From the NCBI GenBank assembly GCA_013314775.1, contig JABUFB010000008.1, positions 496,001-560,000 of the forward strand: a stretch of 64,000 bases of DNA, read 5' to 3'. The translations under genes were made by a program, and so were the position numbers. This DNA is from Armatimonadota bacterium. GTDB lineage: Bacteria; Armatimonadota; Zipacnadia; Zipacnadales; JABUFB01. This document shows positions 17,717 to 47,043 of the stretch, one piece after another. Under the pieces are notes generated by a model. The model saw only the letters and a list, made by a program, of their open reading frames with translations. It did no database searches and was not told the DNA's origin. Positions within the stretch are counted from its first letter, which is position 1; each line of letters starts with the position of its first letter.

Positions 17717-18952
17717 TCAACCCTCCGCGACTTCCATCGCCACTTCGCCCCACTTCTTCAGGCGCATGGGGTCGTAACGCACGGTGCTGATGTCCTTCAG
17801 AATAATCTCCAGCGGGCAGCCGTAACGCTTGCAGACCTCTCGCGTTGCCACTAGGTCTTCCCGCACGGCTTCGGCGTCGAAGGTATCCGTAGCAAGCAGC
17901 GCGGGACTCGGCTTGCGCGAATAGACGTACTCGCCCGCAATCTCGCTGGCCCCGCGTTCCTGATCCACCCAGGCGCTCATGGAGACTTTGCGAACATGGG
18001 GGATCATGCGCACTTCGGCCATCTTACGGTCCAGCGGGTCGCAGCAACCGTAATAGACCAGTCCGAACCGCTCGCAGATGCGGCTCGTGTAATCCACCTC
18101 GAACTCCCGGAACATCGCGGGAGAGACGGTTGAGAACATCTGGGCCAGTCCGAACATCCACAGGTCTTTGGTGCGCGGCTTATCCGGGTTGTAGCCGGGG
18201 GCGGGCAACTCATCCACCCACGCCCCCGTGCAGTGGATCAGGCTCTGCGGCCCGCACAGGAGGCCCTGCTCCTCGAGCTGGTCCAGCATGGTCAGGTAGC
18301 CTTCGGTCACCCGTCCCGCAAGCTTGTGCATGAGTTCCGGCTGATCGACCAGCGCCCAGAGCGCCCCTTCGACGCTCATCCAGGTACTGATCGGGTCCCA
18401 GAGCGACAGGTACGGGTCGACGCCCTCGGCTCGCAATTCCATGATGCCGTCAAAGATCTCGTGGGCCACGCTCATCCGCCGCTCGGTCTCGGCGGCGTCA
18501 TGGCTCACTCGGGGCGTTTTGATCTGCTCAAGGTCCTCTTCCGTCTTGAACTGGTTCACGAACCGGTGTCCAACCACCGAGTTCGTGGGGTCGGTGATTG
18601 CCCGCTCTTCCTCGACTCCCACGCCGAACCCCGTGTTGTGCACCGCCTTTGGCACGCGGATGAACGGTTCCACGACCATGTCCACGGGAAAGTACTTCCA
18701 CTGGAAGAGCGTGCGCCGCAGGAAGTTTTCGTAGCCGCGGCACTCGGGGTCCTCGCACCGCAGGGTGAGCTCGTCGTCGATGTTCATTTCATTCCAACAG
18801 ACTTGGTCGATCATCACCATGGGCCGCTGAGGCCGCAGGGCATTGAGAGCGCGCCAGAGTTTGCGTTTTTCCTCTTGCACAGGAAGCGCAGCGATCTCGG
18901 CAGTCCGGCATGCAAGGTCGCGCAAGATGGTCAGGTCATGTGGACTGGGCAT
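17717..18952 (-). CDS. URO-D-family protein
   Basis: 411 residues. The ATG at 18952 has GGGAG about eight bases upstream; an ORF extension 12 codons longer lacks one. C-terminal features (VDQERGASEIAGEYVYSRKPSPALL, CKRYGCPLEIILKDISTVRYDPMRLKKW) and the middle (LSLWDPISTWMSVEGALWALVDQPELMHKL) match long URO-D-like proteins often annotated as uroporphyrinogen-III decarboxylase. At about residue 302 is YGCCDPL, the position of the HxCG zinc motif in other members, here with paired cysteines. Probably a methyltransferase or another enzyme of this superfamily, not HemE. It stands alone, transcribed away from the sialidase-like gene. Confidence 0.75.
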   Translation of the reverse strand: MPSPHDLTILRDLACRTAEIAALPVQEEKRKLWRALNALRPQRPMVMIDQVCWNEMNIDDELTLRCEDPECRGYENFLRRTLFQWKYFPVDMVVEPFIRVPKAVHNTGFGVGVEEERAITDPTNSVVGHRFVNQFKTEEDLEQIKTPRVSHDAAETERRMSVAHEIFDGIMELRAEGVDPYLSLWDPISTWMSVEGALWALVDQPELMHKLAGRVTEGYLTMLDQLEEQGLLCGPQSLIHCTGAWVDELPAPGYNPDKPRTKDLWMFGLAQMFSTVSPAMFREFEVDYTSRICERFGLVYYGCCDPLDRKMAEVRMIPHVRKVSMSAWVDQERGASEIAGEYVYSRKPSPALLATDTFDAEAVREDLVATREVCKRYGCPLEIILKDISTVRYDPMRLKKWGEVAMEVAEG

Positions 18953-19370
18953 TGGCGATCTCCCACAAGAAGGTTCGTGACGGGTCACTCACGGCGAAAA
19001 GGGAAGGCACTAGAGAAGTCCGCATTATCCACGGCTATTCTCTGTACGCACGTCCTCGACCTTCAATCTTTGGCGTGTCCTGCACGCCCATTCTGCCGTA
19101 CCCAGTTCTGCGAAGAGCCTCGGCAGCGTCATCCCGCCACCATGATCGTGATCACCCCGGGTGAATGCGACATGGGCCCGCGGCATTTACCGTTTCCTAT
19201 TCTGCTCGCGCTTCACAGTATTCACGCGCCGGCGCGCCCATCTCAAGGTCGTAACGAATGCGTCTTCTGGCCCTGTTCGCCAGACTGAAGGAACTTACCG
19301 TCGCACCGGTGAATGTGCATTATTCTTCACCACTCGAATGCCGGCTTCGCTGGCCGGGAGAAGCTCTCCA
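18953..19370. other. 418-bp divergent intergenic region
   Basis: Lies between a URO-D gene (minus) and a sialidase-like gene (plus), so it should hold both promoters. I see a small palindrome GTGACGGGTCAC at 18977-18988 just upstream of the URO-D ribosome site, and no convincing -35/-10 pair. The open frame running through it toward the sialidase-like start looks noncoding and has no ribosome site. Confidence 0.45.
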
Positions 19371-34023: not shown

Positions 34024-37000
34024 TCACTGGCGCACGAAGACGATGCTGTCCAGCCCCACGCCGCCTCCGAGATTGGTGAGGCGGAGGCGGTGCGTGCCTG
34101 CGGTCAGGGCGATGGCCTGGCCCCCACCGGCCGCGTAATACGCCCAGTTGTCGGTCTGGGTGCAGAAACCACCCGTCACCGGCAGCGTCATCTGCTCGAA
34201 GGCTTTGCCGGGCGATGCGCCGTCCATCACAAGCGCCCGGCGGGGGTCGGTTGCACTGCCCGAGCAGTACCTGAGATACACCCGGTAATCGCCGGCAATG
34301 GCTATGGGCACATCCCATTCGAGCCAGTGCCCTTTGCTCTCATCCCAGTAGCTCAGCATCCGGCCCTGGCACCCGATGCGCTGGAAAAGTTGCACTGTTC
34401 CCTCGCCCTGGCCCGCGAAATCCTCGGCCTGCACCGTCACCACGCGGTCCGCAGCGATCCCCGCAAGCTCCTGCGGCGGGGCGCTCACGATGATCCGCGC
34501 ATCAGCGGTGTTGCCCGCCCGGTCCGTCACTCGCACGCTCACCGTCTGCGCGCCAGCGTGTGCGAATTCCACCTCAACATCTGAACCCTCGGCTTTCATC
34601 CCGTCGGGAAGCTCCCATCTGATGGTCTCAACGTCCCCATCAAAGTCGCTCACCCGTGCCTTGTACCTCACCCGGCTCTGACCGAGAGCCAGCGACTGCG
34701 GCCCGTCGATGCTCACCACCGGCGCGCCCGGGTTGACGAACTGCCCCGGCGAAATCGCGACGAAGGGGACCGCTCCCCGCAACGACAGCGTCACCATACC
34801 CGGACCACTGACATTGAGGGTTGCCGGCCCATCACCTGCAACGGCGACCGTCAGTTCGCGGGGCTGCCCGGCCTCGCACGTGCCCTCGGCCTTCGCGCCC
34901 CCCAGTTCCAGCGCCGCCGTCATCGGGCTATCCTGGGGCGCAACAACCACTCCCAGATCGGTCGCGCCGGGCTCCGGATGCAGTCGCAGAACTGCCGGCA
35001 GCTTGCCCAGCCGCAATTCCAGATCGCCGCCGACCTTCGCTACCCAGTCGCGGTTGCTCGACCGAAACTGCCACGCTCCGGCTCCCGCGGGAATCCTGAC
35101 TTCGTGGTATCCCGGCTCCGCCTTGTCGATGCGCAGCCGGCCGTCGGAATCGAAGGGCACGACCTGCCCGGAGGCGGTCACGAGATGCGCGAGTTCCGAG
35201 ACCGCCATGTCATCCGGCAGCGGCTCCACCGTTCCCAGCCACAGGTCCAGCGGCCCGGCTGCCTTCTGGTGGATGAGCAGCGAGTGGGACTGCTCGCCGC
35301 TGAATGCCGGCCCTTCACGAGACAGCAGATCCATGTTGTACAGAATGTGGGGCGTCCAGCGCAGGTGCGCGATCGACCCGATGCCTCCATTGAAGGCCGC
35401 CTGCATAGCGCGCATGGCAATCTCACCGTGCTCGGGGTCGCCTGCCAGCCGGTACGCGAAGAACAGGATCTCAGCCACCATGTCATTGTTCGCGATGTAC
35501 CCCGTCATGTTCGGACACGAGGTGTACCGGAACCCGTCCACTTCGGGGACCCACATCTCCGCAACGGCCTGCCGCGCGCCGCCCACGATCGACCGGGCAA
35601 CGCGTTCATCACCGGTCTCGTTGTAGAACTCCTCCAGGCCGTTGGCCAGCACACCCAGCATGAAATTGGCTTCCCCGCGGTGTCTCGGAAAGTCCAGGCA
35701 GTGCCCGGGAACCATTTGCCGGTGCCAGCCGCCATCCGGCGACTGGCGCTCAAGCGTGCGCTCCACGATGATCCGGCACGCATTCAGGTAGAACGGGTCG
35801 CCGGTGGCCCGGAATGCGGCCATCTGCAGCAGCAGATTCCAGCCATTGTCCCGGCAGTTGCTGAAGTCATAGTTACACAGGTACTCGCCGGCGTAATGAT
35901 CGGCAACCAGACCCGCGTTTTCGGCAGCAGTCGGGTCTCCACTCAGGGCGAACCAGTCGCAGAAGCCCTCTGTCCATGTGTGGCTGGGCGTGAAACCGCT
36001 GCCGGGGATGCCGCTGCCCTCGTACTGCTGGCTGAAGTACCTCCCCGTGTGCCCCATAGAGTGAATCCATTCGCCGCCCGTGTACGGCCCGTAGTGCGCG
36101 GTATCCACGTCGATGGCGTGCCTTGCGGCGCGTTCGCCGAGGCGGTACCACCTGGGGTCGGCACAACGCGCGAACTGCATCAGGAAGGCGTGGTGGTGGT
36201 CGTACTCGCCGTTAGCCCAGTTTACTTTTCGCTCGCCGAATTGGTCGCCGAAGTTGAGCATCCCGTAGTTCCGGTTGCTCTCGCGGTAGTTCACGTAGCC
36301 GTTGTAGACCTTCTCGCAGACCTGCTCATAGTCTGGCCAGCGCCCGGTGGTTGCCGGGAGGATCTCTCCGAACACCGCGGTGCCGCAATACCGCTCTGGA
36401 CTGCACAGCACCAGCGGCGGGTCCTGGAGGGCCTGCGCGAACTGCGGCGCATCGGCGGGCATCTTCCCCGGATGGAACCACAGCAGCACCTCATGCTGCT
36501 TCGTCATTCCCTGGCGCAGCTTGTACTTGCCGCCCTTGAGGTAGAAGTAGAGCTTGATATCATCCAGGAGCGTCTCGCTGTCGTACGTCCCCTCGGGGAA
36601 GTCCGGGCACAGGTCAAGGCTCAGGCCTTCGGGCGTCACCCGCAGGCCCTTCGGGTATGTCTGCCAGAAGTCCCGCACCATAGCCGTGACGCCCCAGCGC
36701 TCTCCGCTCACATCCACCCAGCCATCGGCCCGGGACTTTGCCGGCAGGTCGCCTCCCGCGGGTTCGAGAGTGAAACGGTCGTCCCGCAATTGCTCCAGCT
36801 TCATGTTGCCCTTCCCGCTCGCGACCTGACCATCACCCAGGCCAACCGTCCACGTTGAGCCTTCGCCCGGGTTGGCTGGCAACTGCAGGGACAGCCCCTG
36901 CATCTCTGCGAACTCGCCCGGTTCATCGTTCCCCCACGCGGTGTACATCCGAATCAGCTGCGACCCCGCGTGGAAGACGAACCGGTTTCGGTAGGTGAAG

Positions 37001-38973
37001 AACCCTTTGCCTTCCGCGTTCAGGTGGTGGCCACTTAGCTTCACCACGACCCGCAGCGGGCCGGCCTCCTCGATCTCCACAAGCTCCGGTGCGTGGAGGG
37101 TGTCAAAGTCTACTCCCGCGGCGTCCGTGAGTTTCAGGGCCATCGCTTCAGCGCCGATCTCCTCCGCATCCGCGAACTGGCCGTCGCCGTCTGCATCGAG
37201 CCAGAGCCGCGTTGGGCAGCCCGAGCGAGTTCCATCGAACTGCGCCCGGAGCACTCCGGTGTCCACGGTGATCTGCGGCCCGTCCTCGCTGACCTCCACC
37301 GGCGCGGGAACGGCCATCCGCCGCACCCTCGTCCCGTACTCAACCGAATACTCGCTCTGCCCGTTTGCCGGCAGGTCCGCCAGGAAGGTCACCAACAGCC
37401 ACTTGATGCTCCCGTCCAGCCAGCGCATGGTGGCCTGCGCCTGCACGGGGACCTCGCGGCCCCGGGAATCCAGCAGCCGCGCGTGGTCCGGATTGCCCAG
37501 TTCGCCCTTCGCGAAGGGGATGCCGTTGCTCACCGGGAAGCCGTTTAGCGCACACCCATACGGGTTGGCCACGGTAACCGGCACCCGTGAAAGCTCCACG
37601 GTCCCGTCGAAGGGAGTCGGCGGGGAGACCGTTGCCCGCGCCCATTCCGTCGCGAGTTCGCTCCCATCGGGCTTCGGAGCGATCACCCGGTATTCCACGC
37701 TTGCCCCTGCCGTCAGTCCTTCCAGGAACACCCGGTGGTTCGCCTGCGGCTTCGGCTCAGCGACCGTCCGGGCATCGCCCTCCCCCGCCCGGTACTCAAC
37801 CGTGCAGGCCGAGGGCCAGGTAGTGATCCACGTCACGCGCAATGCCGGAGCGCCTGTTTTCGTGACCGCGGAGGCCTCCAGGTTGCTCAGCTCGAACTTC
37901 CGGCCGCGCACCGGCGGCTTCTCGGCAAGGAGCAGCAGGTCCTCGGTGATGTGGGAGCCGTCCCCGAAAGTACGGAGCGTCACCGTATCGCCCTCGGCGA
38001 AGTCCACCGGCTCCTGCAGGAAGTGGATGCGCTGGCGGTTGTCATCCTCCGCCGCCACGAAAGCGCCCACAACTTCGCCATTGACCCTCATCTCGTAGAT
38101 TTCGCGACCGCGACTGTCATACACCACGATAGCGGGGTAGAACCGTCCCGCTCTCGGCACCGTGAAAGTGATCCGCCCATTGCCGATGACCGCGGGCCAG
38201 CGGTACTCGGCGTCATAGTAGCGGAAGCCCTGGAGTTCAGCCTGCGGGCTCTGCAGAGCGACGTTGCGCGGGTCTGCCTGGAGCTTCCAGATCAGGTCCA
38301 GGCCCTCTGTGACTCCGAAGTTCCGGTCGCCTTGCAGGTCCATGGCCATCTCCCTCGTGGGTCGGTCGCTGTCCGCGGGACCGTCTGCCGTCACCCAGCC
38401 CGTGCTTCTCACCGAGGCATGGGGCTGCCGCGTCTCGGAGAGCACGGTGAACCGGAGCTTCGACTTCCCGTCTGCCTGGGCCACCGGCGTGTCTACGCAC
38501 ATGTACAATACGCCATCCGCCAGCGCCACACGGGGAGACCTGCCCTGCCCGGGCGAACCGTCCGGCGCGAAAGCGGTCAGGCCCGGGGCTCCCTCGGTCT
38601 GCGAGAACATGAACTCGCAGCCCATCCCCTGCCGCCCGGTCTGAGGGTTGTTGTCGGTGTCCCAGTAGAGGATGAAGCCGCTGTTGGTGAACGTATACGG
38701 TTCCGCCGCGTGGAACGCCCATAGCCAGCGGTTCCGGGCGACATTCCCCATCTCCACCCGCACAATGTCCAGTTCTGGGTGGTCGGCAGATCTGGGGCTG
38801 GCGGTCGCCACCGTCTGCAGGACTTCGGCGAACTGAGGGTCAGTGCCGAGTTCCTCCTCGATCTCGTCCGCGAGTCCATCGCCGTCAGTGTCCGCTGCCC
38901 ACAGGGGCAGGGAAGCGCCCAACGCCAGGATTGCCACGACGAGGGGCCACGTCGCCCCGCCTGTTCGCTTCAT
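34024..38973 (-). CDS. giant secreted PL26-like (exo-rhamnogalacturonan lyase, PcRGLX/YetA) protein
   Basis: 1649 residues; ATG 38973 has GGAGG about five bases upstream, 14 earlier codons discarded. Signal peptide (LVVAILALGASLPLWA). Residues 28-46 are a thrombospondin-type-3/EF-like calcium loop (DTDGDGLADEIEEELGTDP). About 60-470 contain beta-domains. From ~470 comes the RIFT-barrel opening of PcRGLX/YetA proteins (VSNGIPFAKGELGNPD, RWLDGSIKWLLVTF, GTRSGCPTRLWLDADGDG), then a long alpha/alpha-toroid with aromatic clusters (to ~1300). About 1415-1490 look like a PKD-type domain (VRVTDRAGN); about 1500-1649 a CBM6/35-like module (VTVQAEDFAGQG, LTAGTHRLRLTNLGGGVGLDSI). Expected role: exo-lysis of rhamnogalacturonan outside the cell. 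Last gene of a five-gene minus-strand operon. Confidence 0.72.
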   Translation of the reverse strand: MKRTGGATWPLVVAILALGASLPLWAADTDGDGLADEIEEELGTDPQFAEVLQTVATASPRSADHPELDIVRVEMGNVARNRWLWAFHAAEPYTFTNSGFILYWDTDNNPQTGRQGMGCEFMFSQTEGAPGLTAFAPDGSPGQGRSPRVALADGVLYMCVDTPVAQADGKSKLRFTVLSETRQPHASVRSTGWVTADGPADSDRPTREMAMDLQGDRNFGVTEGLDLIWKLQADPRNVALQSPQAELQGFRYYDAEYRWPAVIGNGRITFTVPRAGRFYPAIVVYDSRGREIYEMRVNGEVVGAFVAAEDDNRQRIHFLQEPVDFAEGDTVTLRTFGDGSHITEDLLLLAEKPPVRGRKFELSNLEASAVTKTGAPALRVTWITTWPSACTVEYRAGEGDARTVAEPKPQANHRVFLEGLTAGASVEYRVIAPKPDGSELATEWARATVSPPTPFDGTVELSRVPVTVANPYGCALNGFPVSNGIPFAKGELGNPDHARLLDSRGREVPVQAQATMRWLDGSIKWLLVTFLADLPANGQSEYSVEYGTRVRRMAVPAPVEVSEDGPQITVDTGVLRAQFDGTRSGCPTRLWLDADGDGQFADAEEIGAEAMALKLTDAAGVDFDTLHAPELVEIEEAGPLRVVVKLSGHHLNAEGKGFFTYRNRFVFHAGSQLIRMYTAWGNDEPGEFAEMQGLSLQLPANPGEGSTWTVGLGDGQVASGKGNMKLEQLRDDRFTLEPAGGDLPAKSRADGWVDVSGERWGVTAMVRDFWQTYPKGLRVTPEGLSLDLCPDFPEGTYDSETLLDDIKLYFYLKGGKYKLRQGMTKQHEVLLWFHPGKMPADAPQFAQALQDPPLVLCSPERYCGTAVFGEILPATTGRWPDYEQVCEKVYNGYVNYRESNRNYGMLNFGDQFGERKVNWANGEYDHHHAFLMQFARCADPRWYRLGERAARHAIDVDTAHYGPYTGGEWIHSMGHTGRYFSQQYEGSGIPGSGFTPSHTWTEGFCDWFALSGDPTAAENAGLVADHYAGEYLCNYDFSNCRDNGWNLLLQMAAFRATGDPFYLNACRIIVERTLERQSPDGGWHRQMVPGHCLDFPRHRGEANFMLGVLANGLEEFYNETGDERVARSIVGGARQAVAEMWVPEVDGFRYTSCPNMTGYIANNDMVAEILFFAYRLAGDPEHGEIAMRAMQAAFNGGIGSIAHLRWTPHILYNMDLLSREGPAFSGEQSHSLLIHQKAAGPLDLWLGTVEPLPDDMAVSELAHLVTASGQVVPFDSDGRLRIDKAEPGYHEVRIPAGAGAWQFRSSNRDWVAKVGGDLELRLGKLPAVLRLHPEPGATDLGVVVAPQDSPMTAALELGGAKAEGTCEAGQPRELTVAVAGDGPATLNVSGPGMVTLSLRGAVPFVAISPGQFVNPGAPVVSIDGPQSLALGQSRVRYKARVSDFDGDVETIRWELPDGMKAEGSDVEVEFAHAGAQTVSVRVTDRAGNTADARIIVSAPPQELAGIAADRVVTVQAEDFAGQGEGTVQLFQRIGCQGRMLSYWDESKGHWLEWDVPIAIAGDYRVYLRYCSGSATDPRRALVMDGASPGKAFEQMTLPVTGGFCTQTDNWAYYAAGGGQAIALTAGTHRLRLTNLGGGVGLDSIVFVRQ

Positions 38974-38998: not shown

Positions 38999-40144
38999 TT
39001 AGCTGCTGATCTCATGCACGATATTGCAGTACTCCCGCACCCGTTCGATCGGCGTCCCGGGGGTCACCGGGCTGCCGATGCTCACCACGAACCGTCCCCT
39101 GTTGCGCCGTCCCGCCTCGCATTGCCGCTCGATTTCTGCCCGCAGGGCCTGGGATGACCCGTGTTCCATGACGGCGATGGCATCGATGTTCCCCAGCAGT
39201 GCCATGCGCCCATCCACCAGTTCCGCCACCCGCAGGATATCCACCTCGAACCCCTTCTTGCTCTCCTCCAGCGCCAGAGCATCGGCCCCGGTATCCAGCA
39301 AGTACTGCCAACGATCATCGGGCCGCCCGCAGTAGTAATGTACGGACCACAGGCCAGCTTCGCGGATGGCCTCCACCAGAGGCCGCACATACTTCAGGCT
39401 GAAGTCCCGGCATTGCGCAGGGCTGATCATGTCACTCATGCAGTCCTCAATCCAGATGAGCTCAGCGCCCGCCGCTGCGGAGCCCCTGACGCTGTGGATG
39501 CTGTGCTGGAGCAGGCGCTCGCAGGCCAGGGAGACGAGCTCCGGCGTGTGGATCATCCGCTCCATCAGTCCAACGAACCCCCATAGGGCGTGCAACCACC
39601 ACCAAGGAGAAGGCACGTGCGCGATGGGCATTCGCTCAGCGCCGAGTTCCCCCAGCAGCAGGCGGGGCAGGTCCAGCGAGCCGTCCGCGGGAGCGACGAA
39701 ATCCGTCGGACGTTCGCCGTAGACCCGGTCCATGGCGGCCTCGAGTTCGTCAGGCGAGGACACACTCGCGCCTGGAGGCGTGGCGTCGCTCCCGGGAGCG
39801 GGTTGGTTACCGCCGATCGGAGGGCGATGAAGCCGCCTGCGGTCCCCGGTTGCCCGATTGACCTGCCACGCCTCTTCGCCGTTAGCCTCAATGACCAGGT
39901 CCTCTTGCAGCTTCCGGCTGTGCCCATAGTGGACCTGGAACCAGTCCTCGCCGGTGCGCTTGATCATGTCCAGCCAGGGTCGGGCAGAGCGTGCCGGATC
40001 GGCATCGAACTGGGCCCACCAGGGCGCATCCGTAGCCTCCTCCCAGTGGTCCCGCAGAAACAGTCCCTGGTAGCAGGTCACCGCGGCAAAGGAGTTGGTA
40101 CCCTCGCTGCTGAGGCCGGCCCGAATCTTATCGCGCCCCGTCAT
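38999..40144 (-). CDS. URO-D-family protein with HxxC motif
   Basis: 381 residues; ATG 40144 has GGAGG eight bases upstream. Opens MTGRDKIRAGLSSEG, consistent with the URO-D superfamily. The zinc-type motif is H269-Y-Y-C272-G (one residue longer than HxCG), and the C-terminus has the family LLGNIDAIAVMEHGSSQALRAEIERQCE pattern and GRFVVSIGSPVTPGTPIERV. Probably methyltransferase-like. It lies between the PL26-like gene (25 bases) and the glycyl-radical enzyme (52 bases) in the same operon. Substrate unknown. Confidence 0.75.
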   Translation of the reverse strand: MTGRDKIRAGLSSEGTNSFAAVTCYQGLFLRDHWEEATDAPWWAQFDADPARSARPWLDMIKRTGEDWFQVHYGHSRKLQEDLVIEANGEEAWQVNRATGDRRRLHRPPIGGNQPAPGSDATPPGASVSSPDELEAAMDRVYGERPTDFVAPADGSLDLPRLLLGELGAERMPIAHVPSPWWWLHALWGFVGLMERMIHTPELVSLACERLLQHSIHSVRGSAAAGAELIWIEDCMSDMISPAQCRDFSLKYVRPLVEAIREAGLWSVHYYCGRPDDRWQYLLDTGADALALEESKKGFEVDILRVAELVDGRMALLGNIDAIAVMEHGSSQALRAEIERQCEAGRRNRGRFVVSIGSPVTPGTPIERVREYCNIVHEISS

Positions 40145-40196
40145 CGCTTGCCTCCGTCGGGATGCATCGCGGGATGGGCTGACACCATGCGGCAAC

Positions 40197-42497
40197 TCAC
40201 CCCAGCGTCTGAGCGGTTCGTCCGATGATCTCTTCCTGTTCTTCCGGGGACAGATCGACGAACCGCGCGCTGTACCCGGCCACCTTGACCATTAGATTCG
40301 GGTGGCGTTCCGGGTGCTCCCGGGCATCAAGAAGCGTCTGGGTATCCACCATTGAGACCTGCATCTGCATAACCCCGAGATCGACGAAGGACTTCAGGAA
40401 TCCAGCCAGCATCTGCCTGCCCTCGGCGGTATTGAAGAGTGCCGGGTCGAAACGCAGGTCCAGTGAGGTCCCATCAGGGAACTTCGTGAAATCGATGGCA
40501 CTGAGAGACGTGAGCACCGCCGTGGGCCCGTGCCGGTCCGTGCCCCAGGTGGGGTTGAGATTGCGGGTCAGCGATGTCCCTGCCGGGCGCCCGTCGGCCG
40601 AGGCGCCCACGACCCGCCCGAGAGTATGGTTCGCCACAAAAGAATATAGCGCAAGCTGCCAGCGGCCGCCGCGGGCATTGGTCCTGTGGCGGAACTCCTC
40701 GTACAGGGTTTCCGTCACGAATGTCGCGAGGTCATCAACCCGAGGATCGCCATTGCCCCATTTCGGCGCCGCGAGAAGCTTCCGCTGCAGGGCGTCGTCA
40801 CCCGCGAAGTCGCGTCTCAGCGCGGCCAGCAGCTCATCCATGGATAGTTCACGCCGGACGAATACGAGTTCGCGGATAGCGGCCAGCGAGTTCACCACGT
40901 TCGGCAACCCGGCGACGATGCAGCCGGTAAGATTGTACCGCGCGCCACCGGAACAGACGTCCTTGGCCCGGGCGATGCAGTCCTCCGTGAGCAGCGACAT
41001 GAGAGGGTAGCGCCGGTTCTCGCAATGGGACACATCCACTGCATTGACCAGAGCGACCAGCTCATTCGCCACGAAATGCAGTTGCTCACAGAAGGCCGAA
41101 AGCACAGCCTCGAACCCACGGAACGTTCCGTCCCCGGCCGGCGGGATGCCCAGCGTCTCACCGGTCATGAGCGACCTGCCCTCATTGAGAGCAAGTTCCA
41201 GGATGAAGGGGAGGTTGAGATACGCGCCGTTTGGATTGAAGGCCTCCCGGCCCGGGATTGTATTCTCGTAGCAGCACGAGCAGATGTAATCCCGGGCGTC
41301 GTACAGGGCCCGACCGTGCCGCAGGAAGCACGGGATCAGCGCCTCGTCATTGACTACCGGAAATCCTAGCCCGCCTGCCACATAGTTGGCATATGCCTGC
41401 CAGGCACGTTCGGGTGCACCCTTGTGCAGACGCAGCGACAGGTAAGGCGCCGGCATGGCGATGCGCAGCGACGCTTCCATAATCAGTTCAGTCAGGTCAT
41501 TGTGGGCGTCCAGGCCCAGCGGTGTCACGCCGCCGAGACTGCCGTGGCTGCCTGGAGTGTAAGGCTGGTGACCCGTGTAGTAGTCCACGTGGCGGAAGGC
41601 AAGCAAAAACAGTTCCAGGAGTTCCAGTGCTTCCTCGCGTGTGAGCAGCCCAGCCTCAATGTCGCCGCGGTAATATGGAAAGAGGAACTGGTCCAGCCTC
41701 CCCAGCCCCAGCCCCCCGCCGGGACAGCAGCCGCCCATCTCCAGCGTTACAAGGCAGTAGACAAGCCAATATGACTGGAGCGCTTCAGCAAAGGACTGTG
41801 CAGGGTGCTCAGGAACCCGACTGAGCCGGTCCGCAACGGAACGCATTTCGGCGGCCAGCGCGTCATCATCAGTGCCCTCCGCCAGAACCAGCGCCGCCTC
41901 TCTATAGCGCTGGGCGTAGGTCAGGACGCTCTGGCACGAGACCAGCAGCGCCTGGAAGAAGTCCTCCTGGTCGGCGCTAAGTGTCCCGGCAGCCCGGCGA
42001 TTGGCCAATTCCTCCTCCACCCTTGCCCGCAGACCGACGATCCCCTGCCCAAGGATGAACTCGAGGCCAGGCGTGATATGACCCTCGAAGCAGGCGGCGT
42101 AATACATGCTGGCCGCGCGCAGGCGGTCGGCTGCTTCGCTCGGAGCCATCTGTCCTTCTCGGCTGTGCCGGTCAGCCTGCAAAGACGGAAGGAGCAAGTT
42201 GAAGAAGAACGGATTTTCGCCGCCGGCGAAGAGCGTGTCCGGCTCGGGGGTGATCTCGCAGTTCTCCACCACATGCCGCAGCGCCAGAGCACGGGCCATC
42301 GCGGGCCCATCTGGTTCTCGCGCCAGAAAGACATCCCGCGCTTCAGCCGCGAGCCGTGCGTACTCCGGGGGCTGCGTGCGGCTCTCGTAGCCCATCTCGA
42401 ACCGGCGTTGGCGAAGCCGCGACGACCTGGGAGTGCTGCAATCCGGGCCCAGCCCCGGTGGTCGGTAGTACGGTTCAGATCGCGCGAACTCGTGCAT
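40197..42497 (-). CDS. glycyl-radical enzyme (pyruvate formate-lyase family)
   Basis: 766 residues; ATG 42497 is preceded by AAGGGG, 11 bases after the upstream stop. Both catalytic signatures are present: the thiyl loop I-C-S-C-C409-Y-E411-N and the radical site VKVAGYSARF near the C-terminus with Gly at about 741. The Cys-x-Glu pair resembles eliminase/dehydratase members (GCVE) more than true pyruvate formate-lyase (CCVS), but with Cys408 where Gly is usual, so the reaction is uncertain. Oxygen-sensitive and in need of a radical-SAM activase, which is not seen in the window. Placed between two URO-D genes in the PL26 operon; a role on a sugar-derived diol or similar compound is an inference. 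Confidence 0.85.
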   Translation of the reverse strand: MHEFARSEPYYRPPGLGPDCSTPRSSRLRQRRFEMGYESRTQPPEYARLAAEARDVFLAREPDGPAMARALALRHVVENCEITPEPDTLFAGGENPFFFNLLLPSLQADRHSREGQMAPSEAADRLRAASMYYAACFEGHITPGLEFILGQGIVGLRARVEEELANRRAAGTLSADQEDFFQALLVSCQSVLTYAQRYREAALVLAEGTDDDALAAEMRSVADRLSRVPEHPAQSFAEALQSYWLVYCLVTLEMGGCCPGGGLGLGRLDQFLFPYYRGDIEAGLLTREEALELLELFLLAFRHVDYYTGHQPYTPGSHGSLGGVTPLGLDAHNDLTELIMEASLRIAMPAPYLSLRLHKGAPERAWQAYANYVAGGLGFPVVNDEALIPCFLRHGRALYDARDYICSCCYENTIPGREAFNPNGAYLNLPFILELALNEGRSLMTGETLGIPPAGDGTFRGFEAVLSAFCEQLHFVANELVALVNAVDVSHCENRRYPLMSLLTEDCIARAKDVCSGGARYNLTGCIVAGLPNVVNSLAAIRELVFVRRELSMDELLAALRRDFAGDDALQRKLLAAPKWGNGDPRVDDLATFVTETLYEEFRHRTNARGGRWQLALYSFVANHTLGRVVGASADGRPAGTSLTRNLNPTWGTDRHGPTAVLTSLSAIDFTKFPDGTSLDLRFDPALFNTAEGRQMLAGFLKSFVDLGVMQMQVSMVDTQTLLDAREHPERHPNLMVKVAGYSARFVDLSPEEQEEIIGRTAQTLG

Positions 42498-42508
42498 CAA
42501 TGCGCCCC

Positions 42509-43633
42509 TTACAGATCGAAAGCTTTGCGGGCTGCAGATACCCACTGGTTCACCCGGGTGACAAACTCCGCCTCACTCTGAAGTGGGGTAAGACCCGATG
42601 TCGCCACCGTGTAACTCCGCCCCGAACCCCTGAGCAAGTCGGCCTTCGCCTGTAGCTTGCACGCCATTTGCTCCGGAGCGTCCACCACCACGTCATTGGG
42701 GTGTGCCGCGAGGTTCAGGTGCTTGTCAGAGGGCAAGTTCGCCATAGACTGCGCGAGGTCCATCCACGGACTGACCTCGAAGCACCCGAGGGTTTTGATC
42801 TGCAGCATGTACGGGTGCAAAGGTGCCTGGTCGCCACATGAGTGGAAGCCCGCGAACACGCCGTGGAATGCCTCGATTTCCAGGTAACGCGGGAGGACAA
42901 AATCATGGAACACCGAGGGCGAAATGTACGGCACCGCCACCCAGTCATCCGCGACGAAGCTGGGGCCGATCTTCTCACCCAGGTACTCGGCCGCCGCCTG
43001 ATGCCACCGGCAGCGCTCCCGGACCAGCAGAGCCATCAGCTCGTGTACGAACTCGGGCCGCTCGAGGGTATCCAGCATGAAGTTTTCGTACCCGCGCAGC
43101 TGCACCGCGAGGTCCAGACAGCCTCGAAACCACCCGAAGAAGCCGATGTTCAGCCTGTCCAGGGACAACTCCCGGAGGTCCTCGTACCAGCGAAGCATCC
43201 GCGGCATCCATCCGGAGTTGCGGAAGTCGACGGGCGGCAGCATCCCAAGATCCGGGGACTTCGTGAGTGGGTGGTCAGTCTGGATATCGGGTCCGCCGTG
43301 TGAGCGCACGTCCACTTGCATCCCGAAGAAGGTGTACTCGGGGTAATGGCCCAGCCACGCGGGCACGAAGTTGTCGATGGGCAAGTCATCGTCGATGTTG
43401 CGGAAACGCCACAGCTTCTGCCGCAACTGCTGGCAGAGATTGAACACAGGGTCATTGAAGTATCTCCGGGGATCGAAATGGAAGAGATGGACCCATGCGA
43501 TGGGGTTTTCGATCTCCACCACAACCGCAGGCCCGGGCGGCCTGTTCAGCCGCGCTTGGTTCCGCTCACTGGCGATGGCCTCATCCAGCGCGTCCATGAG
43601 CCTGTGAAGCTCGGGCCGTTCCACATCCGGCAT
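42509..43633 (-). CDS. URO-D-family protein with HxCG motif
   Basis: 374 residues; ATG 43633 has AGGAGG eight bases upstream (an earlier in-frame ATG overlaps that site). H264-S-C266-G-D is the zinc-type motif of methylcobamide-dependent methyltransferases; the N-terminal region is an atypically long lead (PDVERPELHRLMDALDEAIASER) before the barrel. Other cues are YENFMLDTLERPEFVHELMALL and YISPSVFHDFVLPRYLEIEAFHG, both characteristic of the URO-D barrel. It overlaps functionally with the next gene: 11 bases to the glycyl-radical enzyme, so they are likely co-expressed. Confidence 0.75.
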   Translation of the reverse strand: MPDVERPELHRLMDALDEAIASERNQARLNRPPGPAVVVEIENPIAWVHLFHFDPRRYFNDPVFNLCQQLRQKLWRFRNIDDDLPIDNFVPAWLGHYPEYTFFGMQVDVRSHGGPDIQTDHPLTKSPDLGMLPPVDFRNSGWMPRMLRWYEDLRELSLDRLNIGFFGWFRGCLDLAVQLRGYENFMLDTLERPEFVHELMALLVRERCRWHQAAAEYLGEKIGPSFVADDWVAVPYISPSVFHDFVLPRYLEIEAFHGVFAGFHSCGDQAPLHPYMLQIKTLGCFEVSPWMDLAQSMANLPSDKHLNLAAHPNDVVVDAPEQMACKLQAKADLLRGSGRSYTVATSGLTPLQSEAEFVTRVNQWVSAARKAFDL

Positions 43634-43691: not shown

Positions 43692-44693
43692 TCAGCTGCG
43701 TGGCGACCAGTCTTCGGGAAGCTCCAGCGTCCAGACCTCGCTGTTTAGAACATTCGCATAGCCCCCGTAGACCCAAATCTTGTCCTTGAAAACTACCGCG
43801 GACAGCTCGTGGCGGTTGTCCCAGATCACGTCGGATTTCACTTCAGTCCAGTTCTTTCCGTCCTTCGAGCACCACACATCGCCGAAGTTGCCGTTCGCCC
43901 TGGACCATCCGCCGAGGACCCACATGTACCCTCGATAGACCACCAGTGAGAACCACATGCGCGGCGCCCATGGCGCGTTTTCCGTCACTTGGGTCCAATT
44001 GACGCCGTCTTCGGAGCACCAGACATCGTTCAGGGGCACGGTTTCCGGGCTCCAGCGTCCCCCACCCATGAGCCAGATCTTCCCGTCGAACACTACCGCC
44101 TGGGCGTGGGTACGCTTCGACCAAGCCGCATGTGCGGTCTCCAGTTCCCAGTTCTTCCCGTCGGTGCTGGACCACACATCGTTCTTGAGCGTCTGATCAT
44201 TGTCCTCGTAGAAGTTCTCGGAGCCGCCCATGACCCACATGCGGTCCTTGAAGACGACGAACGACGGCGAGACCCGGGGGCACCATCCGGCGCTTTCGCA
44301 CTCCAGCGTCCAATCGGCGCCGTCGGTGGATGACCAGACCTTGTTGCTGTTTTCGGCTCCTGGCAGCTTCCGGCCACCCATGAACCACATCTTCCCCTTG
44401 TAAACCAGGGCTACCGACAGATCACTGTGTTCCCAAGGGGCCACCTCCACGGTACGGACCCAGTTGATGCCATCAGGCGATTTCCAGACATCCCGGGGAT
44501 TGGGTGTCTGCGGCGCAAACCAACCGCCGAGTATCCAGAGGTGATCGTCGAACACAAACTCGCCCTGCGAGTCCCGAGCCTGCCAATCCGCTTTTCGATT
44601 CACCAGCACCCAGTCCGGTGCCTTTACAGAATCACCCATCGACGCGCTCACTCCCAACAGAATCAGTCCGAGGACGGCCATGAGTTGGCCCAT
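43692..44693 (-). CDS. secreted kelch-repeat beta-propeller
   Basis: 333 residues; GGAGG seven bases before the ATG. Signal peptide (LMAVLGLILLGVSASMG). Five clear repeats of about 55-60 residues, each with DVW.S.DG.NW followed by an APW..R stretch and W.LGGW or MGG turns (for example DVWKSPDGINW, DVWSSTDGKNW, DVWCSEDGVNW, DVWCSKDGKNW), plus a partial last blade. This is the kelch/galactose-oxidase propeller pattern. No copper-oxidase ligands are recognisable, so a binding or scaffold role is more likely than oxidase. First gene of the operon leading to URO-D, radical enzyme and PL26-like genes, 58 bases upstream of the first URO-D gene. Confidence 0.8.
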   Translation of the reverse strand: MGQLMAVLGLILLGVSASMGDSVKAPDWVLVNRKADWQARDSQGEFVFDDHLWILGGWFAPQTPNPRDVWKSPDGINWVRTVEVAPWEHSDLSVALVYKGKMWFMGGRKLPGAENSNKVWSSTDGADWTLECESAGWCPRVSPSFVVFKDRMWVMGGSENFYEDNDQTLKNDVWSSTDGKNWELETAHAAWSKRTHAQAVVFDGKIWLMGGGRWSPETVPLNDVWCSEDGVNWTQVTENAPWAPRMWFSLVVYRGYMWVLGGWSRANGNFGDVWCSKDGKNWTEVKSDVIWDNRHELSAVVFKDKIWVYGGYANVLNSEVWTLELPEDWSPRS

Positions 44694-44962: not shown

Positions 44963-45169
44963 ATGGAAGTCAGTAAGCCGGTCATGATTGCCGTCATCGT
45001 CGTCGCAGTTCTGGTCGTTGGGTTCATCGGCTTCAAGACGCTTGCGCCCAAGAAGCCAAACGCAACCGAGCAGATCATGGCGCCCCAGCAGCTGATGCAG
45101 AACACGCCGGGAGGCGGCACGCCGGGAGGTGCGCCCACGCAGCCAATGGGTGTGCCGCCAGGCAGGTAA
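44963..45169 (+). CDS. 68-residue single-pass membrane protein (tandem copy 1)
   Basis: ATG with GGGAGG nine bases upstream; a longer in-frame ORF lacks a ribosome site. Sequence: a short MEVSKP lead, one hydrophobic segment at about residues 7-24 (VMIAVIVVAVLVVGFIGF), a basic patch KTLAPKK, then a Gly/Pro/Gln/Met tail ending MGVPPGR. The basic patch after the helix suggests the C-terminal tail stays in the cytoplasm, by the positive-inside rule. The downstream gene is a clear paralogue. No family recognised; not a known toxin, holin or leader peptide as far as can be seen. Confidence 0.7.
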   Translation: MEVSKPVMIAVIVVAVLVVGFIGFKTLAPKKPNATEQIMAPQQLMQNTPGGGTPGGAPTQPMGVPPGR

Positions 45170-45282: not shown

Positions 45283-45480
45283 GTGGAAGTCAGCAAGCCC
45301 GTCGTGATCGTCGTCATCGTCATCGCAGTTCTGATCGTAGGTTTCATCGGCTTCAAGTCGCTGGCGCCCAAGAAGATGCCTGCACAGCAGCCGCCGCCTG
45401 AGATGATGCAGGGTATGCAGGGCGGCGCGGCCCAGGGCGGCGCCGCCGGACAACCCGCCGGCGTCCCGCAAGGAAGATGA
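45283..45480 (+). CDS. 65-residue single-pass membrane protein (tandem copy 2)
   Basis: GTG start with GGGAGGG eight bases upstream; an in-frame GTG six bases earlier is too close to the ribosome site. VEVSKPVVIVVIVIAVLIVGFIGFKSLAPKK is near-identical to copy 1 over its first 31 residues (about 80 percent), after which the tail is Met/Gln/Gly/Ala-rich and ends AGVPQGR, so the GVPxGR C-terminus is conserved while the middle diverged. Same predicted topology. The intergenic spacing (113 bases) and separate ribosome sites suggest tandem duplication with each gene kept functional. Function unknown. Confidence 0.7.
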   Translation: MEVSKPVVIVVIVIAVLIVGFIGFKSLAPKKMPAQQPPPEMMQGMQGGAAQGGAAGQPAGVPQGR

Positions 45481-45570: not shown

Positions 45571-47043
45571 CTATCCGCAAAGCTCGCGCCGCGCCCGGTC
45601 GACGACCTCTCGGGCCGCGGCCAGTTGGTCCCCACGGCCGCTGGGCTTCTCATGCGCGGCCACGAGTTCGTGGACCTTCCGCAAAGCCCGGTCCCGGATC
45701 GCCGCGTCCTCATCAGGCGTCCACCCACTCCGGCCGTAGAACTCCGGCAGCCATGATTCCGACCGCAAGTACCGGCAGGTATGCTCTTCGCCCAGGTAGT
45801 TCCGGTCGAAGCCGAACCCGATCTCCTCGATGGTCTCCAGCCCCAGACTCTCTTCGTCTATCCCGCCGGGCTCGAGCTGCCGGACTGCTTCGGTGATCTC
45901 GCGGTCGATTAGAACTTGAACCGGGCTGATTGCGAGCCCCGAATCCAGGTGCCCCATGCCGATCTCCGGGTGGTAGCCGGTAAACGCGGCTACCGTCATC
46001 GCCACGTAGGCTTTCTCAAGCGCCGTGAACATGCCCGTCCTGCAGGCGCTGGACCACTCGCCGATTGAGGGGCTCACTTCCACCCCTGTCCAGACCCGCA
46101 TGAACTCGGCCGCCGCCAGTCTGCGCCGGAGAGCGTCGAAGGCGCTGAAAGACACGTCGCCGCCGCGCATGTCCATGGTGCCGCAGACAACCAGCCCAGC
46201 AAGGGGCACATCCGACACCAGAGCGCGAGCGGCCATCCAGACAGCGATGAACTCGGCCGCCATGATCACCACACCGCCGCCCGTTGTGATAGGCATGTTC
46301 ACCCCGGCGGCAGGCATGCACGCGAGCTTCGCCGGGTAGAGCCCGGACTTCACCATCTGCACCACGCGCTGCGCCACCCCGCGATCGAGCTTCAGAGGAG
46401 AGTTCGGGCAGATATTCGCCATCCAATGCCAGTAGGGGTCATCTATCCCGAAGATCCTCTCGATCTCCTGGAGATACTCGACCTGCCGGGCATCCTGCAC
46501 ATACACACCCCGGGGGTTGTGGGAGTACTCAAGCTGACACAGCGCCGCTTCCAACGGTTCCACCTGCGGGGGGACTTCGGTCAGGATCAGTGAGTGTCCG
46601 CTGCCCTCGTCGGGGTGCAGCATGTCCCCGAACTGTATGAGTCGAATGTAGTCTCTTCGGTTGCCCTTGCGCGACTGCTCGATTTCATCGTCATAGTAGA
46701 AGGTCGCGAGCTGATGGAACAGGTGAGGAAGGAAGGGAGCCCGCAGCTCAGGCCCCTTCTCATACGGCGTCCAGCCGGACATGCCCGTCTTCAGGTTCTC
46801 CCCGGTCGATGCCATCCATCGCGTCCACGCCGCCTTGTCCTCTGCGCGGATCTGATCAACGAAAGCCTGCGTCATCGACTGCGGAAAGCGCGCGCGCTGA
46901 GCGTCGAAGTCCACCTTCGCTCCCGCAACATGCAGGGCGGTGAGTATCTCACGGTTCTCCACATGCAGCCCGACCCGCTCCAGGACATGCAGCGTGCCTT
47001 TGGCGAGAACCTCTACGTCCTGCTCACGCAACAGTCGGAACAT
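45571..47043 (-). CDS. trimethylamine methyltransferase-family (MttB-like, non-pyrrolysine) protein
   Basis: 490 residues; GGGAGGG upstream of ATG. The segment LACMPAAGVNMPITTGGGVVIMAAEFIAVWMAARAL matches the MttB family core (PMAGATAPVT...NAE motif), followed by the usual GTMDMRGGDVSFS and EIGMGHLDSG regions. There is no in-frame amber codon, so it is the pyrrolysine-free type, whose characterised members demethylate quaternary amines such as glycine betaine or L-carnitine with a corrinoid protein. No cognate corrinoid protein or reductive activase is in the window. It follows an aminotransferase gene by 86 bases containing a hairpin, so is probably in that operon. Confidence 0.82.
   Translation of the reverse strand: MFRLLREQDVEVLAKGTLHVLERVGLHVENREILTALHVAGAKVDFDAQRARFPQSMTQAFVDQIRAEDKAAWTRWMASTGENLKTGMSGWTPYEKGPELRAPFLPHLFHQLATFYYDDEIEQSRKGNRRDYIRLIQFGDMLHPDEGSGHSLILTEVPPQVEPLEAALCQLEYSHNPRGVYVQDARQVEYLQEIERIFGIDDPYWHWMANICPNSPLKLDRGVAQRVVQMVKSGLYPAKLACMPAAGVNMPITTGGGVVIMAAEFIAVWMAARALVSDVPLAGLVVCGTMDMRGGDVSFSAFDALRRRLAAAEFMRVWTGVEVSPSIGEWSSACRTGMFTALEKAYVAMTVAAFTGYHPEIGMGHLDSGLAISPVQVLIDREITEAVRQLEPGGIDEESLGLETIEEIGFGFDRNYLGEEHTCRYLRSESWLPEFYGRSGWTPDEDAAIRDRALRKVHELVAAHEKPSGRGDQLAAAREVVDRARRELCG

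Follow-up and report, generated by a model that had tools for sequence, protein, structure and literature searches.

A glycyl-radical enzyme of an apparently undescribed subfamily and its likely UroD-superfamily partner in Armatimonadota

Gene content and organization of the locus

The window discussed here, by which we mean the whole 64,000-nucleotide stretch of DNA that was analysed, belongs to contig 8 of a genome of 6.1 Mb and 98.5% completeness, the near relatives of which carry the name Armatimonadetes. Its minus strand carries a run of five genes in which a glycyl-radical enzyme (GRE) is flanked on both sides by UroD-superfamily (URO-D) genes; the genes and motifs referred to below are as follows.

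43692-44693, minus strand: kelch, a kelch-repeat protein with a signal-like N-terminus (Pfam); opens the run and is retained in L021, a contig piece of a same-genus genome
42509-43633, minus strand: UROD_up, a UroD-superfamily protein of 374 aa (PF01208, 1.6e-6); co-occurs with GRE
42833-42844, minus strand: HSCG motif of UROD_up (H264, C266)
40197-42497, minus strand: GRE, a glycyl-radical enzyme of 766 aa with PFL-like and Gly_radical domains (PF02901, 1e-123; PF01228)
41262-41282, minus strand: thiyl loop CSCCYEN of GRE, residues 406-412 (C409, predicted thiyl; E411, predicted base)
40272-40283, minus strand: glycyl-radical motif VAGY of GRE (G741)
38999-40144, minus strand: UROD_dn, a UroD-superfamily protein of 381 aa (PF01208, 1e-28)
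34024-38973, minus strand: lyase, a secreted PcRGLX-like (PL26-like) protein of 1649 aa with PKD and CBM domains (Pfam)

An earlier sequence-only reading had proposed the order kelch, UROD_up, GRE, UROD_dn and lyase, and the open reading frames, their starts and the gaps between them (58, 11, 52 and 25 bases) were reproduced exactly; C409 and E411 of GRE fall at the residues it had named, and G741 is the radical glycine. It had also given each gene an individual ribosome site, and while clear purine-rich sites precede kelch, UROD_up, UROD_dn and the lyase, that of GRE is weak. The Pfam match of UROD_up is itself weak (PF01208, scoring 27.8 bits where the cut-off is 23.9), and in the lyase the second, first and third PcRGLX domains all score over their cut-offs (3e-12 to 6e-7), yet as partial and weak matches. 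Pfam identified five URO-D genes in the window; a protein encoded at 17717-18988 was caught by our home-made URO-D profile and by no Pfam family. Upstream of the run there is an MttB homologue (45571-47043, Pfam), and between it and kelch two small tandem paralogous genes on the plus strand (44963-45169 and 45283-45480) encode single-membrane-helix proteins with Gly/Pro-rich tails.

Sequence and predicted structure of GRE

GRE has the marks of its superfamily, i.e., a PFL-like domain, a C-terminal Gly-radical motif and a thiyl cysteine. Its orthologues, 51–91% identical, are present in Armatimonadota, Victivallales (Lentisphaerota), Defluviitaleaceae (Bacillota), Thermoflexales and Anaerolineae (Chloroflexota), and all other GREs seen were at most 40% identical. 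In a tree from which an incomplete Anaerolineae row was omitted, the orthologues were monophyletic (support 100/100, stem 1.12) and separate from the CutC, glycerol dehydratase, PflD, YbiW and HypD rows. The orthologue of one Armatimonadota genome (G251, L029) is split in two overlapping frames, probably by a draft-assembly frameshift. The group around HypD, the hydroxyproline dehydratase, takes in GREs from several Armatimonadota families (L055-L058, L062, L063, L068, L070 and L071).

Against NCBIfam, GRE scored under every equivalog cut-off (CutC, HypD, HpsG and the other GREs with models), the best score being 434 bits to TIGR01774, and our literature search found no paper joining GREs and UroD proteins in one pathway and nothing on GREs under the name Armatimonadetes; two papers that use the newer phylum name mention each term just once or twice. 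With its separate clade, its low identity to other GREs and its sub-threshold scores, GRE belongs, judged by sequence, to a real, undescribed subfamily, which is probably isofunctional. Among GREs of established function, a threshold of about 60% identity tells one activity from another (PMC6453916); with no more than 40% identity to other GREs, the subfamily therefore probably has its own substrate.

The thiyl loop departs from known ones, as had been remarked from the sequence: CSCCYE is invariant in every orthologue covering the loop and absent from all other GREs seen, in which the alignment shows GCVE, GCHE and similar residues. CCYEN was found in all covering orthologues save the Victivallales enzyme (CCYEF). 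One other GRE of the source genome (L006, contig C24) has the aligned loop SCMGL, with Gly replacing the catalytic Glu. The subfamily also has a Gly-rich loop, EMGGCxPGGG, that is longer than its glycerol dehydratase counterpart.

Pocket residues were mapped by the numbering of glycerol dehydratase, whose substrate residues we take to be H164, H281, S282, E435, D447 and Y640. H164, E435 and Y640 are retained in GRE as H140, E411 and Y618, and the remainder are replaced: H281/S282 by G261/G262, which lie in the Gly-rich loop and are conserved in the clade, and D447 by N423, which is N in all orthologues but one (S). Y339 of glycerol dehydratase is likewise replaced, by G316, throughout the clade. 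An AF2 model of GRE (pLDDT 81.6, pTM 0.86) matched by Foldseek best to the Roseburia propanediol dehydratase (9rco and 5i2g, TM 0.87), then to glycerol dehydratase 1r8w, CutC and HypD; its low-confidence stretches take in parts of the pocket loops, and we draw on it for the overall fold, not for the form of the pocket.

Conservation of the neighbourhood and co-occurrence of UROD_up with GRE

The full gene order recurs in one same-genus genome (G254), on two contigs, one carrying aminotransferase, MttB, kelch, UROD_up and GRE genes (L021) and the other UROD_dn and the lyase (C292). Around the other GRE orthologues this order was not found outside the genus, and other neighbours stand there; many of those contigs are short and may hide a link over more than a few kb. 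GRE occurs in eight of 291 Armatimonadota genomes (G000, the source genome, with G254, G257, G274, G253, G007, G214 and G251). UROD_up, taken as orthologous at 52% or more identity (the next best match being 39%), also occurs in eight, with G275 in place of G274, so that seven genomes are common to both sets. G274, with GRE only, and G275, with UROD_up only, are two drafts of one genus, which agree only if pooled by genus. Outside the source genus the two genes co-occur and yet are not adjacent.

The naive probability of this co-occurrence is about 2e-12, or about 7e-9 counting GRE-bearing genomes only; these values are overstated, since presence of an MttB homologue, counted in the same way, already gives 3e-5, so that shared gene content inflates them. 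Outside Armatimonadota, four GRE-bearing genomes have only remote (about 30%) relatives of UROD_up; UROD_up is therefore not essential to GRE everywhere and the link is not universal. UROD_dn follows GRE weakly, with clear orthologues common only to G000, G254 and G257 (in trans in G257), and for this reason we rejected it as an obligate partner. The proposal that URO-D genes belong to GRE on both flanks accordingly survives for UROD_up, which tracks GRE in seven of eight genomes each way among the 291, and fails for UROD_dn and for a gene order confined to one genus. How often GRE homologues stand without URO-D genes, the check put forward with that proposal, gave a split answer: seven of eight co-occur in Armatimonadota, while the four genomes outside it have no UROD_up orthologue.

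Two further candidates were rejected as members of the system. For the MttB homologue, which served as a control gene from the window, no orthologue beyond the genus exceeds 47%, and an FAD-dependent oxidoreductase that seemed to bridge GRE (in G257) and UROD_up (in G007) proved to be two proteins only 27% alike. In G007, UROD_up is flanked on one side by an FAD-dependent oxidoreductase and on the other by a PcRGLX-like protein, a kind of which this genome encodes only about six; over 731 residues the latter shares 27% identity with the window lyase. We noticed this recurrence after the fact and take it as a mild hint at acidic-polysaccharide breakdown. We do not regard the pectin link drawn in the sequence-only reading as supported; behind it stand the weak lyase profiles and this one recurrence, and both this link and UROD_dn are lineage-specific.

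GREs, URO-D genes and activases in the wider genomes

The source genome encodes nine GREs, about 77 URO-D genes (79 matches) and one strong candidate radical-SAM GRE activase (C8:869536-870402; L042 8462-9427), remote from any GRE. Other Armatimonadota have 5–13 GREs against 1–3 activases, with ratios such as 8:1, 8:1, 7:1, 11:2 and 13:3 in members of the order. Around as many as 68 other GRE loci, 60 from the order and 8 from the source genome, we found URO-D genes at 5/126 immediate positions, all co-directional, at 6/115 second positions and at 0/87 third positions. Co-directional URO-D neighbours are about three times as frequent as expected from the genome density of roughly 1.4% of genes, a figure derived from the source-genome count assuming about 5,500 genes; the enrichment is modest. 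In G290 (L146 2308-8309) a GRE of another subfamily (loop GCQEN) stands in a run of URO-D, GRE, URO-D and URO-D in one direction, confirmed with Pfam. The URO-D proteins beside other GREs are mixed, many having HxDG or neither it nor HxCG. Given the 5/126 neighbours and the G290 run, we regard the GRE/URO-D pairing as a recurring theme and not a single case, and together with the co-occurrence of GRE and UROD_up it makes a functional link likely; UROD_up is likely the functional partner of GRE in Armatimonadota. The nearly one-to-one occurrence of UROD_up with a GRE, an oxygen-sensitive type of enzyme, points to an undescribed anaerobic pathway.

Proposed function and alternatives

The sequence-only reading took the HxCG motif as a sign of methyl transfer and envisaged a methylated or deoxy product of pectin degradation, processed by linked methyl transfer and radical elimination. 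In such a scheme the URO-D proteins would remove the methyl group, by transfer linked to a corrinoid or a thiol, and GRE would carry out the elimination. UROD_up weakly matches the methyltransferase MtaA (4ay7, E 0.048), with H264-S-C266 aligned to the MtaA H-I-C, and HxCG is invariant across UROD_up orthologues and two remoter relatives. In MtaA this H-x-C and a third Cys are the zinc ligands. Where the third Cys is expected near the C-terminus, however, UROD_up has T-S-G (S-S-G in one orthologue), i.e., Thr or Ser in every orthologue, a column placed by motif, the pairwise MtaA match ending before it; UROD_dn has HYYC or YYYC with no invariant His, and GSPxTP at the third-Cys place. HxCG therefore fails as proof of methyl transfer. 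The AF2 model of UROD_up, made from two sequences, reached a pLDDT of only 30.6. The presence of an MttB homologue upstream is in keeping with methyl transfer, as is the single corrinoid-binding protein (PF02607) of the genome (contig C9, L115 8055-10668), which lies beside a RACo-type activator and could be a shared hub; against this, no corrinoid protein gene was found in the operon, and one such protein stands against some 77 URO-D genes. That lone protein and its activator are possibly a hub common to these URO-D genes and several MttB-like genes. Among UroD-superfamily enzymes there are O-, S- and halogen-demethylases, but also decarboxylases, MetE and epoxide-CoM transferases (PMC10418091). 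With incomplete zinc ligands, mixed URO-D neighbours at other GREs and several chemistries in the superfamily, methyl transfer is possible but weakly supported, and we consider the coupled demethylation of a pectin product unlikely.

Less probable still is that GRE is a B12-independent 1,2-propanediol dehydratase acting in rhamnose catabolism, the input for which would come from the rhamnogalacturonan-lyase-like protein. The top fold match and the PcRGLX domains of the lyase would suit such a role; its clade is nevertheless separate from glycerol dehydratase, H281, S282, Y339 and D447 are replaced clade-wide, and the Pfam-scanned neighbours include no microcompartment or propanediol gene. We likewise give little credence to GRE acting alone with its URO-D neighbours there by chance. 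URO-D genes are certainly abundant in this genome and window, the order is not kept beyond the genus and carriers outside the phylum lack UROD_up, but GRE and UROD_up co-occur where they are not adjacent, and other GREs have more co-directional URO-D neighbours than the genome density would give.

The best explanation, to which we give a probability of roughly 0.6, is that GRE catalyses a 1,2-elimination as a member of an undescribed subfamily and is activated in trans, with UROD_up as its partner in a pathway. A radical-SAM activase encoded elsewhere and common to the nine GREs would place the radical on G741; activation in trans is suggested by gene counts only, i.e., one strong activase for nine GREs, repeated in relatives. 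The radical would then move from G741 to C409, whose thiyl would abstract a hydrogen from a small hydroxylated substrate, and with E411 as acid/base a leaving group, most likely water, would depart to yield a carbonyl compound. As the fold and H140, E411 and Y618 are those of glycerol and propanediol dehydratases and the binding residues differ, the substrate is presumably a different one. UROD_up would act on the same metabolite in Armatimonadota, before or after GRE, and UROD_dn and the secreted lyase may have joined the cluster within this genus. We infer the elimination chemistry, the trans activation and the shared metabolite; another chemistry for GRE is possible, since the C408-C409 pair recalls pyruvate formate-lyase.

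A bolder proposal, which we hold tentatively and rate below the eliminase explanation, is that GRE is of a new chemical type, with a PFL-like Cys-Cys pair and an eliminase Glu, coupled to a UroD-superfamily enzyme in a new anaerobic pathway, with one activase serving many GREs and the pairing recurring across GRE subfamilies in Armatimonadota. Because the genome comparison names a specific partner, UROD_up, a search for the substrate becomes tractable; a result would also account functionally for some members of the UroD-like expansion, which in this phylum is very large.

Comparison with known systems

Closest to GRE are the B12-independent glycerol and 1,2-propanediol dehydratases (1r8w, 5i2g and 9rco), which are alike in fold (TM 0.86–0.87), in H140, C409-x-E411 and Y618, and in VAGY; they are only 27–28% identical to GRE, which differs by the pocket replacements given above (N for D447, GG for H281/S282, G for Y339) and by CCYEN for GCVEP, and no activase adjoins GRE here. 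The choline TMA-lyase CutC shares the fold and C-x-E, but has Asp at the H140 column and differs in other pocket residues; GRE scores 376 bits against the CutC NCBIfam cut-off of 1050, and there is no cut operon here. Pyruvate formate-lyase, like GRE, has two adjacent cysteines in its thiyl loop and the radical loop. Its thiyl loop we take to be CCVS, without Glu; GRE keeps Glu (CCYE) where that enzyme has Ser, and matches 1h16 with only 111 bits. E. coli YbiW and PflD, the anhydrohexitol-phosphate GREs, have the GRE eliminase fold in common with GRE but form a separate clade with other loop residues. UROD_up shares its superfamily and the H-x-C pair with MtaA and MtaA-like methyltransferases, yet it is without the third zinc Cys and the sequence match is marginal. 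All three domain profiles of the PL26 exo-rhamnogalacturonan lyase (PcRGLX) match the secreted protein of the window; the matches are partial and weak, the window protein has added PKD and CBM domains, and its lyase activity is a prediction.
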